From Bacteroidales bacterium (lineage in GTDB: Bacteria; Bacteroidota; Bacteroidia; Bacteroidales; M50B96), in the NCBI GenBank assembly GCA_021740905.1, contig JAIOYV010000031.1, forward strand, positions 1-64,000: a stretch of 64,000 bases of DNA, given 5' to 3'. Shown one piece after another: positions 18,652 to 23,703 of the stretch. The stretch's first letter is position 1. Each line of letters begins with the position of its first letter. A program made the translations under genes and the position numbers. The notes below the pieces were generated by a model. It was given only the letters and a program-made list of their open reading frames with translations. It was not told the DNA's origin and did not search any database.

Positions 18652-18682
18652 ATTGCATCCCGACCAAGGGTCGGGATGCAAT
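18652..18682 (-). terminator. 14-bp hairpin, probable terminator after the GH5-like gene
   Basis: ATTGCATCCCGACC (18652-18665) pairs perfectly with GGTCGGGATGCAAT (18669-18682) around a 3-nt loop. Read on the minus strand it lies just after the stop of the 1,601-residue gene and is followed by a short TTTTAATTG stretch. It also sits 16 nt before the FG-GAP start codon, so it could act as an attenuator for that gene. Confidence 0.6.
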
Positions 18683-18687
18683 ATATA

Positions 18688-21600
18688 CTATTTAATAATA
18701 ATAAGTTTCGTTTGATTACTAGTATTTTTACCTTTTAGATATACAGTATAAATACCTGCTTCCAAAAACGTGAGGTCGAGTTTTTGCTTATAAGCACCCT
18801 CTGTAATCATTAATTCATCGGTATAGACAGTTTTGCCGGTAAAGTCAAAAACATCTAACTCTAACTGTTGTTTTTGCATTGAATTAATTTCAAGTAAAAA
18901 TTGTCCATTACCTGGATTTGGGTTTATCTTAAAATCAAAAATGAATGCAGGATCTTCCACTTCGTTAATTGCTACAACATCAATTCCATTTTTTAGATAT
19001 GTACCGTCACCTTTATCCCATTTCACAAATTTGTAATTTTTTATCGATTTGGTATTTGGACTCCATACTTCAAAAGTAAAGCTTTCGTTTTCAGATAAGT
19101 TTTCAACTATACCAAGTGTATAGAAATCATCACCATAAATTGTAATAGCCGTGAACCCACCTTGGAAAATAGTTTTACCTACTAATTGGTTGTTTTCACC
19201 TAATACGGCAATTTCGTCACCAACTTCTGGTGGTGTACCCCAGCTTTCGTAGGGGATACCAACAACCATATTGTTGTCAGTGTTTATGTAAACTTCCTGG
19301 GTGTAATTTTTATATGCTAATATTGACTTATTGTTAACTTGTGAACCTTGTTTTGTACCTGATAAGTTTTCCTGATATGTTAAATATTGTTGACTATTCA
19401 TTTTTATTTGATATCCTTCTCCTGGAATCATATTACCTATTGTATTAAGTATTCCATTTTGTTGATAAGGCCAGTAAATTAAACCGTCTCCATTTTTAAC
19501 AATCGCAATATTGTAAGGAAAAGCACTTCCAAGAATATTACTAAGCATATCTCCAATATCTGCCGGGGTTGTCCTTAAATACCCAATTATGCTCCAATCA
19601 ACTGGGATGGTAATCGAAGATGAAGGAGCCTCTGGAATAATTCTCACACCTGTAATATAAACAGTTGCTGCACTAGCCATTTTTATTTGGTAACTTTCTT
19701 TTACTACATAGTCACCAATAATGTTTAAATTGTACACAGGCCAATATACTTGTCCAGCTCCGTTTTTAATTATTATCAAATTATTAGGCAATTGAGAGGC
19801 AAAAACAGTACTTAAATTCTGATTGAGTGTAAATAGATATGTCGACCATAAACTCCATTCATCAGGCAAAGTAAGCGTTTGTGTTTCTGTGTCCCCATCT
19901 CCCAGTCCTAAAACAGCATATATCCCAAATTCATCTGTAGTAAGTGTAATTTCATTGTTTATTTGGTCGTGGTAAACATTCGCTAAATCCTGCTTTACCC
20001 ACCCATTGAGGGCATTATACTTAAAAAAACATAGAAATTCTTCATTCACTGCCCCTAATTCATTGTCGGTATACTCAACAGTAATTGTAAAATCATTTGC
20101 TGCTATTGTAATAGGATCGTTATTCTGGTCTTTACATGTAACCTTAAATTCGTGTAATATGCTTTTTAGATGGTCGAAATCATCTTTAGCGGCTAGCACA
20201 TCGCTTGCATATTCTACATAATCAGCACTGCTGATAGTAAGATAATCTTCGCCGGCCCAATGTGCCGTATGATACACAACAACACCACAATTTGTGCAAA
20301 TGGAATTAGCCGGAAATGAATAGGTAGTCCCATCTCTGGGTGAATAGAGCCCTCCTCCTGCGGAACTTACAATATTATTTACCTGTCCAAACATTACCGC
20401 ATAATCCTTTGTTTTGTATTCCTTCTCCTGCATCCAGTCCAGGGGTTCCAACAGGCTTTGCTCATAACAATGGTCGATACCGTTAATATCGGTTACACAA
20501 TCTTCAGTACTTCCGTTTATTGCCCAATAGAACGAACCTGGCAGTTTTTTTTCGGCCATATAGTTTACAAAATACCTAAACCATCCTTCGCTGTATTCGG
20601 CCTGGTCGACAAGTGTACAACCTGGATTGGAAGGACATGTTTCGAGATGGTAGAAAGCCCCAAAACTACTAGGAATCACTGCGTGATTTTTAGATAGATA
20701 CCCCCACCTGAAATTATTTACACCGGTGATATTCGATTGGTTGTACTTTAAACTGTCGATCACATAGTATTCCTCGAATTGGGTTGTGTGTGGGCTGAAC
20801 ACAAGTTTGTGATAGGGAATAATTTCAGGATCGACAGGATAATAGTATGTACTTTGGGAGCTGGAGTTTTCCCCATAAGTTGAAAGGCTTTCAGCATTAC
20901 CATAATTATCACTGGAATTATTAGTTGTTCCGAGAGAAGTGCTGTAGTATTCAGAAATTTCTACTTCTTCACTTACTTTGGGTAAACTTCCGTGTTCTTT
21001 AACCCCTTCAACAAAAACAAGCCAATCGGGGTTTATGGCCCTTATATTTATACCGGCGGTTTGGGCAAAACGCCTGAAATCATCCACATCGCCCGAACCA
21101 TCCCATTTGGCTTCAAAGGGTTCGTTTATCAAGCTTATGCCAACAATATTATTTTGTTGCAGGTTTTCGGCCATATAAAACAGGCTTTCGAGATAATCTG
21201 TTTCAGTAATGCTGTACGTACTGCTATACCACAGCCCTATATCATTAGTGGCTTCAATACCAGTGAGCGACAATACCACATTTAAATCAATCGCAGGATT
21301 ATTGCATCGATCAATAATCTCCACAAGTGCTTGATAAATGGTTTTAGGGGTATTCGGAGCTGAAAAGAAAATACTGTTACCAAGTAAGTTGGCATTAACC
21401 TCTGATAGTGGTATTGTTTGGGAAGCATTGCTCATTTGGTCTACGATTACATCAACCGGATAACACAACCTTATAGTATTGTATCCGAGGCTTTTTATCT
21501 TGTTCAACAAATCATCTATGCCGTAATTATCTAAAGATAAACCGGATATACTGCCGCTTTCAATGCCCCATAGAATTACTCCCCGCAAATTGACCAATTC

Positions 21601-23493
21601 TGGATTACCTGAAGAGACATCCTTTTGATAAATATTTCCCTTTTTGTGCTTGAAATCAAAATTGTTTAGATCGGCATTAACAATATCGTCGGTGGCAAAA
21701 TACCATCCGGCAGGGCTGTTGTTTACAAAGTCGGTTTCTTCGGGTGCATAATATTCAATTGCACCAATATCAACCCCGGTTGAACCGATTGGCGGGATAC
21801 CTGCGGGAATATAATGGCCAAAATAGTCCGATTTGTAATCACTTAAACTAATCCCTTCATCAATACAGTTTGATGTAGGGATCAATGTAAAATCTTCAGC
21901 AGTAGTAGGTGTAGCTGATATAAAAGGGGAAGTGCCAACAGAATTAATTATTGTAGGAGGACTACCGTACTGTGAATTTTCATAAGCAATTAAAGTACTA
22001 TAAGTAGCTAATCCACATGTTATATAGTTGAGGAATTCTTCTGGTATAGCATTATAACTGGCAGTGACTGAATTTAAAGAACTAAAGTCGTATACTTTGC
22101 CACTCTGAACCCCCAGATAAAAAATATTGTTATTTATCCAGGCATTGCATCCTTGTGTCCCATCTAATTTCAATGCTGCGTAATTCGAGCTATTATTTTC
22201 AATATAAACTGTGTTATGATAAATATAAGCAGAGTAACCTATTGAACCTCCATTAAAATAGATGCCGCTTTCGCTACAGTCCTTGATGATATTGTGGTGT
22301 ACTTTTGCAGATGTGAAATTTGTTTGATTACTTAATATTCCATTTGTTGAGCCTTCTAACCAATTATTATAGACATTATAATACCCATTCCCTAATGTTA
22401 CACATGATGTAAGATTTGTTGTACCAATACATATATTATCATGGAAGTTATTGTTGTCACCTGTGCAATTCATTGCATAAAATAACCCATCTTGAGCTAA
22501 GGGCGTACAATATAGGTTGTTGAAAGCAATATTAAAGTTTTGTGTGGATTGAATGGAAATACATTGATTTTCTTGATAAGATGAAGTAGATTGGAAGATT
22601 TGAGTGATAGTACACCTTGAAACATCTATTGATTCTGAATAAAGTCCTATCTGTATACCAGAAACAGAAGTAATCTCACATTCAAGTATCTCCGAATTTT
22701 CTGCACCTAATACAGTTATGCCACTCCCCCCAGATTCAATAAAACAGTCATTAATAGTAATATCATCATAATATTCAGTGAAAATTGCATGTACAACAGT
22801 TTGAATGTTACAATCGCGAATATTTAAACCACTATTATGATCAATTGAGCCTAAACCTTCTGCATTTATTCCGTTCTGATAAGTATTAATATTGCATTCG
22901 TTGATCTCTATATGATTATAATTGTGTAAGGATATTCCAACATTACATGAAACAGGATCATCAATAATGCACGAAGTGATTTTTAATCCATCTCCAGAGA
23001 TTGCATAAATTCCATAATTTGCCCCACTAATTATACATTTGTCGACAGTAATTGTGTTTGTGCTAAATCCAGTAATATGAATGCCTTTATCTGTAGTATT
23101 CAGGCCTAGACAAAGTAAATATAGGTTTTCAATGTGTATATTATTTTTGTTGTTGATAAGAATTATAGATGTTGTAGATGAAGAAAGTATTTGGGGTTTG
23201 TTTCCAACATCATAAGCTCCTATTGTAATGTTGTCCGCACCAATTGTAAGAGGAGATGATAAAGAAATTGTTGTTCCTCGTTTTATTAGGTAAACATCAC
23301 CGGCAACCCAAGATAAATTTGTTAAAGTCTCCCAGGGTGTGTTTATGGTTGTTCCATTATTACTGTCATCACCTTGTCCATTAGGTGTCGGATCAATATA
23401 ATATGTGTTTGGTGATTGTGCAAAAAGTGCACTTAATTGTAAACATAGCAATAATACTATTGCGATTGTTTTAAGTATGCTGCTCGATTTCAT
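18688..23493 (-). CDS. Giant T9SS protein: beta-helix plus GH5-like barrel, nucleophile apparently lost
   Basis: 1,601 residues from the start at 23493, which opens a signal peptide ending LFAQ. Residues ~30-580 form a right-handed beta-helix with many short Asn/Ile coils. Residues ~635-1030 look like a GH5 (cellulase-type) barrel: LRGVILWG, YNTIRLCYPVDV, the acid/base region LINEPFE (Glu ~791), LVFSPHTTQFEE, and PGSFYWAINGSTED. Where GH5 enzymes carry the nucleophile Glu (normally EFG), this protein reads VIPSSFGAF (Ser ~943), so hydrolysis is doubtful and a binding role is possible. Two repeated ~90-residue units with KNGxGxxYWP and GYQIKM follow, then a type A T9SS domain (INPNPGNGQFLLEI). 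Confidence 0.85.
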   Translation of the reverse strand: MKSSSILKTIAIVLLLCLQLSALFAQSPNTYYIDPTPNGQGDDSNNGTTINTPWETLTNLSWVAGDVYLIKRGTTISLSSPLTIGADNITIGAYDVGNKPQILSSSTTSIILINNKNNIHIENLYLLCLGLNTTDKGIHITGFSTNTITVDKCIISGANYGIYAISGDGLKITSCIIDDPVSCNVGISLHNYNHIEINECNINTYQNGINAEGLGSIDHNSGLNIRDCNIQTVVHAIFTEYYDDITINDCFIESGGSGITVLGAENSEILECEITSVSGIQIGLYSESIDVSRCTITQIFQSTSSYQENQCISIQSTQNFNIAFNNLYCTPLAQDGLFYAMNCTGDNNNFHDNICIGTTNLTSCVTLGNGYYNVYNNWLEGSTNGILSNQTNFTSAKVHHNIIKDCSESGIYFNGGSIGYSAYIYHNTVYIENNSSNYAALKLDGTQGCNAWINNNIFYLGVQSGKVYDFSSLNSVTASYNAIPEEFLNYITCGLATYSTLIAYENSQYGSPPTIINSVGTSPFISATPTTAEDFTLIPTSNCIDEGISLSDYKSDYFGHYIPAGIPPIGSTGVDIGAIEYYAPEETDFVNNSPAGWYFATDDIVNADLNNFDFKHKKGNIYQKDVSSGNPELVNLRGVILWGIESGSISGLSLDNYGIDDLLNKIKSLGYNTIRLCYPVDVIVDQMSNASQTIPLSEVNANLLGNSIFFSAPNTPKTIYQALVEIIDRCNNPAIDLNVVLSLTGIEATNDIGLWYSSTYSITETDYLESLFYMAENLQQNNIVGISLINEPFEAKWDGSGDVDDFRRFAQTAGINIRAINPDWLVFVEGVKEHGSLPKVSEEVEISEYYSTSLGTTNNSSDNYGNAESLSTYGENSSSQSTYYYPVDPEIIPYHKLVFSPHTTQFEEYYVIDSLKYNQSNITGVNNFRWGYLSKNHAVIPSSFGAFYHLETCPSNPGCTLVDQAEYSEGWFRYFVNYMAEKKLPGSFYWAINGSTEDCVTDINGIDHCYEQSLLEPLDWMQEKEYKTKDYAVMFGQVNNIVSSAGGGLYSPRDGTTYSFPANSICTNCGVVVYHTAHWAGEDYLTISSADYVEYASDVLAAKDDFDHLKSILHEFKVTCKDQNNDPITIAANDFTITVEYTDNELGAVNEEFLCFFKYNALNGWVKQDLANVYHDQINNEITLTTDEFGIYAVLGLGDGDTETQTLTLPDEWSLWSTYLFTLNQNLSTVFASQLPNNLIIIKNGAGQVYWPVYNLNIIGDYVVKESYQIKMASAATVYITGVRIIPEAPSSSITIPVDWSIIGYLRTTPADIGDMLSNILGSAFPYNIAIVKNGDGLIYWPYQQNGILNTIGNMIPGEGYQIKMNSQQYLTYQENLSGTKQGSQVNNKSILAYKNYTQEVYINTDNNMVVGIPYESWGTPPEVGDEIAVLGENNQLVGKTIFQGGFTAITIYGDDFYTLGIVENLSENESFTFEVWSPNTKSIKNYKFVKWDKGDGTYLKNGIDVVAINEVEDPAFIFDFKINPNPGNGQFLLEINSMQKQQLELDVFDFTGKTVYTDELMITEGAYKQKLDLTFLEAGIYTVYLKGKNTSNQTKLIIIK

Positions 23494-23665
23494 AAGAATA
23501 AGTTTAAAGGTAATAATGTCTGAAGCTTTTCTTTTATTCGTGAAAGATTTTTCCCGGGCTGAGGACATCCGGCAGCAAAACCACCGAATGCCCGCTAATA
23601 GTCGAACTTGTTCTTACCAATCAGAAAGATGAAATTACCGGGATGAAAAAAGAGCGGGTAGTTTT

Positions 23666-23703
<38 letters not shown>

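Follow-up and report, generated by a model that had tools for sequence, protein, structure and literature searches.

P1, a predicted surface protein encoded in a 64,000-nucleotide stretch of DNA from a Bacteroidales bacterium (the window), carries a GH5 barrel without three of the eight residues that mark the catalytic site in its relatives: the nucleophile Glu, the His of strand 3 and a Tyr. Judged from its sequence, the barrel is likely to have lost ordinary GH5 catalysis, and carbohydrate binding by it is plausible. Two full-length paralogues in the same genome, C63 and C77, lack other combinations of the same residues.

The reading frame of P1 is intact over 1601 residues, and an in-frame ATG upstream, at 23568, is a second candidate start that would give 1626 residues. 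Pfam places its best Beta_helix match at residues 217-325, and the Cellulase family (PF00150) matches residues 656-993 (E 4.4e-15, 56.3 bits, cut-off 23.5), which assigns the barrel to GH5. The C-terminal type A sorting domain makes P1 a predicted T9SS cargo, and the protein is most likely exported by this system and fixed on the cell surface. These domains agree with the first-pass annotation, which had described a fusion of a beta-helix, a GH5-like barrel and a T9SS anchor. Beyond the barrel, residues 1043-1200 returned only Invasin_D3 in Pfam, at an E value of 0.15 and below its cut-off, residues 1203-1376 and 1390-1515 returned no Pfam match, and residues 1043-1601 had no match at E ≤ 1 among PDB sequences. 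A search of the whole window with Rfam at gathering thresholds gave 0 matches. The features are collected in Table 1.

Table 1. Features of P1 and its surroundings, in window coordinates.
Feature	Position	Strand	Basis
P1, beta-helix/GH5-like/T9SS surface protein, 1601 aa	18688..23493	-	Translation, Pfam
Signal peptide, N-terminal, residues 1-26	23416..23493	-	By inspection
Right-handed beta-helix region, residues 27-585	21739..23415	-	Pfam PF13229, E 1.8e-12 on the beta-helix part alone
GH5_1-like barrel, residues 591-1042	20368..21723	-	Pfam, PDB sequence and fold matches, profile alignments
Conserved stretch of all three paralogues, residues 1043-1200, without a Pfam match above threshold	19894..20367	-	Pfam, paralogue comparison
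C-terminal cassette A (residues 1203-1376), unmatched in Pfam and found repeatedly in the genome	19366..19887	-	Pfam, genome search
C-terminal cassette B, residues 1390-1515, no Pfam match	18949..19326	-	Pfam, paralogue comparison
T9SS type A sorting domain, residues 1523-1599	18697..18927	-	Pfam Por_Secre_tail PF18962, E 4.3e-11; TIGR04183, E 7e-08
Arg675, catalytic-site Arg retained, strand 2	21469..21471	-	Alignment with relatives, codon check
Thr744, strand 3, His in 80/80 relatives	21262..21264	-	Alignment, codon check
Asn790-Glu791, acid/base motif retained (EGPh Glu201)	21121..21126	-	Alignment, three-paralogue profile against EGPh
His902, retained, strand 6	20788..20790	-	Alignment, codon check
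Thr904, two places after His902, Tyr in 80/80 relatives (EGPh Tyr299)	20782..20784	-	Alignment, profile
Ser943 (AGT), nucleophile position in the preferred register (EGPh Glu342)	20665..20667	-	Profile alignments
Ala946, nucleophile place in the other register	20656-20658	-	Pairwise and MAFFT alignments
Trp990, strand-8 Trp retained	20524..20526	-	Alignments with relatives; one further alignment shifts the Trp by one
Leader upstream of P1 gene	23531..23758	-	91% identity to the C63 leader throughout and to the C77 leader over positions 4-203 of 228
(GA)n tract within leader, 33 nt	23668..23700	-	Repeat search; 25 nt at C63, 29 nt at C77
Terminator-like hairpin, 14 pairs, between P1 and FG-GAP gene	18652..18682	-	Inverted-repeat/terminator scan
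FG-GAP/T9SS partner gene downstream of P1	15589..18636	-	Pfam; paralogue after each GH5 paralogue

The C-terminal cassette (residues 1203-1515; 18949-19887 on the reverse strand), which has no Pfam match, recurs widely in the organism's own genome. Among the best 90 of 112 matches to whole P1 found there, 54, including the three paralogues (P1, C63 and C77), run from about residue 1203 to beyond 1550, and 29 cover about 1203-1377 alone. Three other genomes of the family contain 16, 32 and 11 cassette matches, and two of 56 other genomes of the order contain one each (E ≤ 1e-15).

The closest known structures to the barrel are GH5_1-type endoglucanases. Endocellulase E1 of A. cellulolyticus headed the PDB sequence search with P1 (1vrx, E 8.4e-14; 1ece, E 1.1e-13), and a profile of the three paralogues retrieved the X. 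campestris endoglucanase 4tuf (E 3.7e-32), E1, P. horikoshii EGPh and 8fc0. A fold comparison of the first AlphaFold model of P1, built from an 81-row alignment and the only model so compared, gave 3axx_C (EGPh) at Z 36.0, 1ece_A (E1) at 33.9 and 1vrx_A at 33.8, after which Z drops to 25.0 for the next group. E1, EGPh, 4tuf and 8fc0 lie ahead of all other PDB entries by sequence and by fold. The subfamily assignment leans on the EGPh structure 2ZUN, given as the representative structure of GH5_1 in the sections of Aspeborg et al. 2012 (PMC3526467) used here, and on that footing the P1 barrel would descend from GH5_1 or from close by.

The catalytic site was read against 80 relatives from named genomes, the best 80, by similarity, of at least 440 confirmed. 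Eight columns (R, H, N, E, H, Y, E and W) are invariant in all 80 of this selection. Because the search patterns for the relatives contained NEP as well as G[FY]N[TV][IL], the stretch that leads up to the Arg, the invariance of Asn and Glu is in part a product of the selection; this does not apply to the columns for His, Tyr, the nucleophile and Trp, which lie outside these patterns. P1 reads R T N E H T S W, the Ser being taken from the profile-alignment register. When the three-paralogue profile was searched against 2zum, EGPh Glu201, Tyr299 and Glu342, numbered by counting along the printed alignment, fell opposite Glu791, Thr904 and the Ser943 column. These three are the residues mutated according to the titles of 3qhn, 3qho and 3qhm (the last titled E342A); for the rest of the eight, the roles are those we take them to have.

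P1 shares its fold and a domain-wide similarity with the GH5_1 endoglucanases (E1, 1ece; EGPh, 2zum/3qhm; X. campestris, 4tuf), together with the Asn-Glu acid/base motif that follows strand 4, the Arg, the strand-6 His and the strand-8 Trp. Unlike them, it has Ser943 or Ala946 in place of the Glu that ends strand 7, Thr744 for the strand-3 His and Thr904 for the Tyr after strand 6, and its barrel is fused to beta-helix and T9SS modules. With the nucleophile and two supporting residues gone, the ordinary double-displacement mechanism should therefore not run. The motifs picked out by the first-pass annotation are all in place (LINEPFE at residue 788, SPHTT at 900, SSFG at 942, YSEGWF at 967 and PGSFYWAINGSTED at 985), and its central claim, that the GH5 nucleophile Glu appears to be replaced by Ser, holds: Ser943 takes this place in the preferred register, and neither register puts a Glu there. 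The barrel was also said to be otherwise well kept, a description that goes too far given the loss of the strand-3 His and the Tyr and the retention of 38 of 82 near-invariant positions of the relatives. C63 keeps 43 of these positions and C77 36, against at least 74 in every one of the 80 relatives, which were chosen by similarity; the three barrels therefore appear to have changed well beyond their catalytic residues. Because residues outside the catalytic set are lost as well, the old glucan site may not bind glucan.

Two registers are obtained at the nucleophile position, and neither brings a carboxylate to it. Ser943 occupies the position in the search of the three-paralogue profile on 2zum, in the hhalign comparison of this profile with 36 of the 80 relatives (probability 100, E 8.3e-49) and in MAFFT alignments of P1 with 2 or with 17 relatives. 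It is also the residue reached by the gap-free spacing of 11 from WG to the nucleophile in all three paralogues and in the relatives L031 and L049; the spacing is 13 in 39 of the 80 relatives, the pattern having missed 37 and misread 2. Ala946 takes the place in MAFFT alignments of P1 with all 80, 63 or 26 relatives, in that of the three paralogues with the 80, where the nucleophile column of P1 prints Ala, and in pairwise alignments with the relative L027 and, below significance, with E1. Two AlphaFold models, from 81- and 18-row alignments, have moderate confidence (mean pLDDT 66.5 with pTM 0.73, and 57.0, respectively); strand 7 in each follows the register of its input alignment, and they were not counted as evidence on this choice.

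The draft host genome (6.54 Mb, 160 contigs) contains C63, with 45% identity to P1 over the main match, and C77, with 38%. The reading frames are open in all three copies (1601, 1627 and 1904 residues), the barrels are 43, 38 and 47% identical to each other, not below the beta-helix parts (28-40%), and the module at residues 1390-1515 reaches 58-67%. At the eight site columns, C63 reads R H N E H K E A, both Glu residues being kept and the Tyr and Trp lost, and C77 reads R E N E H Y D F, with Asp for the nucleophile and the His and Trp lost. The Arg, Asn, acid/base Glu and strand-6 His are common to all three. Only C63 still has the strand-3 His and the nucleophile Glu, only C77 the Tyr and only P1 the Trp; because each affected residue persists in exactly one copy, the common ancestor was probably complete at all eight, as far as three sequences tell and assuming that no lost residue was regained. 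On the same assumption, at least seven losses would have followed duplication on the computed tree, and no fewer than six whatever the branching of the three copies. In that tree the three paralogues lie on one side of a branch with support 100/100 and C63 groups with C77 (94/76); a long branch (2.44 plus 1.69 on either side of a midpoint root) separates the three from the 80 relatives, and the tool cautions about long branches. Conservation of the Ser among homologues, proposed as a check in the first-pass annotation, does not extend to the paralogues, with Glu in C63 and Asp in C77, and for this reason repeated inactivation after duplication appears to fit better than a single Ser-type family. 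Since both catalytic Glu residues are kept in C63, that copy may still be an enzyme.

In a genome search with PF00150 the C63 and C77 loci scored 63.6 and 58.5 bits; despite these scores, hmmscan of the full-length paralogues at 0.01 did not show the family, and the same was seen for L019. Two other genes that score with PF00150 end in T9SS sorting domains, L018 3669-6473 (104.9 bits), which additionally has CBM6/CBM35-type modules, and L019 2752-4977 (45.5 bits).

Further members of the three-paralogue clade were not found in the genomes searched. The sets searched for order, class and phylum overlap, and each samples a larger group of genomes. The P1 barrel at E ≤ 1e-20, and the profile of the three barrels (profile A1) at 1e-10, matched only the organism's own genome among 393 genomes of the order. 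Profile A1 found one other genome among 395 of the class (1e-10) and five others among 395 of the phylum (1e-15), and in the latter sequences (L024-L028) the Arg and His motifs, NEP, S[AP]HxY and GEFG are retained, as is the strand-8 Trp motif. The 59 candidate stretches from genome contigs and the 108 from viral contigs contained no relative by this profile, in collections from which the organism's own or a very near genome may be absent.

Downstream of each of the three genes, in the same orientation, stands an FG-GAP/T9SS gene; these partners are 36-50% identical to each other, and T9SS tails are present on all three GH5-like proteins and all three partners. An inverted repeat lies in the gap between the two genes at the paralogous loci too (L016 10507-10531 and L017 12018-12043), on the same plan with other stem letters, and co-transcription of the pair is thus not assured. 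Terminator-like sites are not commoner between 15000 and 24200 than in shuffled sequence (6, against a mean of 6.8), and the 14-pair hairpin was singled out by its place and length. A fourth unit, C71 (L173 1-4640), consists of a beta-helix, the cassette, a T9SS tail and an FG-GAP partner that runs off the contig end, and has no GH5 match.

The leader upstream of P1 contains a (GA)n tract, possibly a phase-variation tract or an initial transcribed repeat. Pure GA repeats of at least 21 nt occur at six places in the genome (C23, C30, C63, C74, C77 and C93; 37 overlapping hits), all of which match hits of the leader search, that at C30 weakly, with about 20 nt matching outside the tract. Six further leader hits (C140, three on C56, C5 and C71) have no GA tract of such length. 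Shorter forms of the leader precede several other genes, many of which start in a signal-peptide-like manner (L111-L122). Nine of 60 genomes of the order, including the organism's own, gave a hit, mostly to the GA tract itself. GA tracts also lie upstream of reading frames in other genomes of the order (L164-L171, of which L165 is from the same family), several of them after TGTAG, and some of the neighbouring frames begin like a signal peptide.

Non-catalytic GH5 modules are already described in the sections of Aspeborg et al. used here (PMC3526467): a Xanthomonas group derived from GH5_1 with expansin and CBM63, GH5_30, and a lipoprotein group related to GH5_8. As compared with those descriptions, P1 resembles such modules in its incomplete catalytic machinery, its long branch and its joining to other modules, and differs from them in lineage and architecture and in having three paralogues with different losses in one genome. 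The same text describes the anti-sigma factor Rsi24C-GH5 of Clostridium thermocellum, whose inactive extracellular GH5 module interacts with crystalline cellulose (PMC3526467). That protein is a sensor without the acid/base residue and with an intracellular anti-sigma part; P1, by contrast, has a T9SS tail and keeps the acid/base Glu, and the likeness lies in the inactive extracellular GH5 module, which for P1 is predicted. New here are the architecture, the lineage and the three sister copies with complementary losses; no report of such a set was seen among the open-licence papers listed.

We consider it somewhat more likely than not that P1 contains a captured GH5_1-type domain, disabled separately in the copies and retained as a ligand-binding or adhesion module. 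An endoglucanase domain would have been captured between a beta-helix and the T9SS C-terminal cassette, the gene would have been duplicated along with its FG-GAP neighbour, and the catalytic site would then have been disabled copy by copy, in P1 by the changes from Glu to Ser943, His to Thr744 and Tyr to Thr904. Brought to the cell surface via T9SS, the kept barrel would bind a ligand, probably a glycan, beside the beta-helix and perhaps with the FG-GAP partner. The first-pass interpretation, a surface carbohydrate-binding protein derived from an enzyme, is supported in part: Pfam and the profile alignments bear out a GH5 barrel that has lost its nucleophile and is fused to both a beta-helix and a T9SS tail, and carbohydrate binding is plausible. 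The barrel could instead be a relic, a folded spacer tolerated in a large surface protein in which the beta-helix and C-terminal modules do the work and the barrel binds nothing specifically. That the C71 unit has the same plan and no barrel suggests that the plan works without one, and many near-invariant GH5_1 positions are lost; all three barrels stay open, however, at mutual identities (38-47%) not below those of the beta-helix parts, and the Arg, Asn, Glu and His of the site are kept in every copy, so that we regard a mere relic as rather unlikely.

Readings in which P1 retains some chemistry fare worse. Laboratory glycosynthases keep the acid/base residue and have a changed nucleophile, and in P1 Glu791, Asn790, Arg675, His902 and Trp990 are kept alongside a Ser at the nucleophile; an 'E292S glycosynthase variant of exo-1,3-beta-glucanase from Candida albicans' (4m80) stands at rank 48 of the fold matches. 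Glycosynthase-like sugar transfer from an alpha-configured donor is nevertheless very improbable, given that the strand-3 His and the Tyr are lost too and that the Glu and Asp of the paralogues give no sign of selection for Ser; we know of no natural donor. Equally poor is the prospect of an active glycosidase with a relocated nucleophile such as Glu969 of YSEGWF, from a segment that the first-pass annotation had named as an example of where a Glu could overturn its claim. The stretch from strand 7 to helix 7 is longer in P1 than in the aligned relatives and C77 also has a Glu at this place, but C63 has a Lys and in 79 of the 80 relatives a different residue stands there (G, Q, V, R, K, P, A or L; that of the 80th was not printed), in both models the residue is predicted to lie inside the helix after strand 7 (residues 961-981), and the Tyr and His of the site are missing as well. 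The sequences lend Glu969 no support as nucleophile. A sequencing or assembly error as the origin of the Ser, conceivable in a draft of 160 contigs, is hardly credible: AGT and any Glu codon have different bases at each of the three positions, which excludes a single miscalled base, the Thr744 and Thr904 codons are at least two bases away from those for His and Tyr, respectively, and the residues around Ser943 fit the paralogues without gaps.

A bolder and quite improbable extension of the preferred account, suggested by the GA tracts, is that the two-gene units led by a hypermutable (GA)n form a switchable set, in which the repeatedly disabled cellulase domain would provide differing glycan receptors. 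If so, the cell could alternate among surface-displayed proteins with distinct specificities. All three loci clear the PF00150 cut-off, a warning against counting such genes as cellulases, and three sister copies, each with a different remnant of one site and with an ancestor that was probably complete, would let assays address in what order catalysis was lost and with what consequences.
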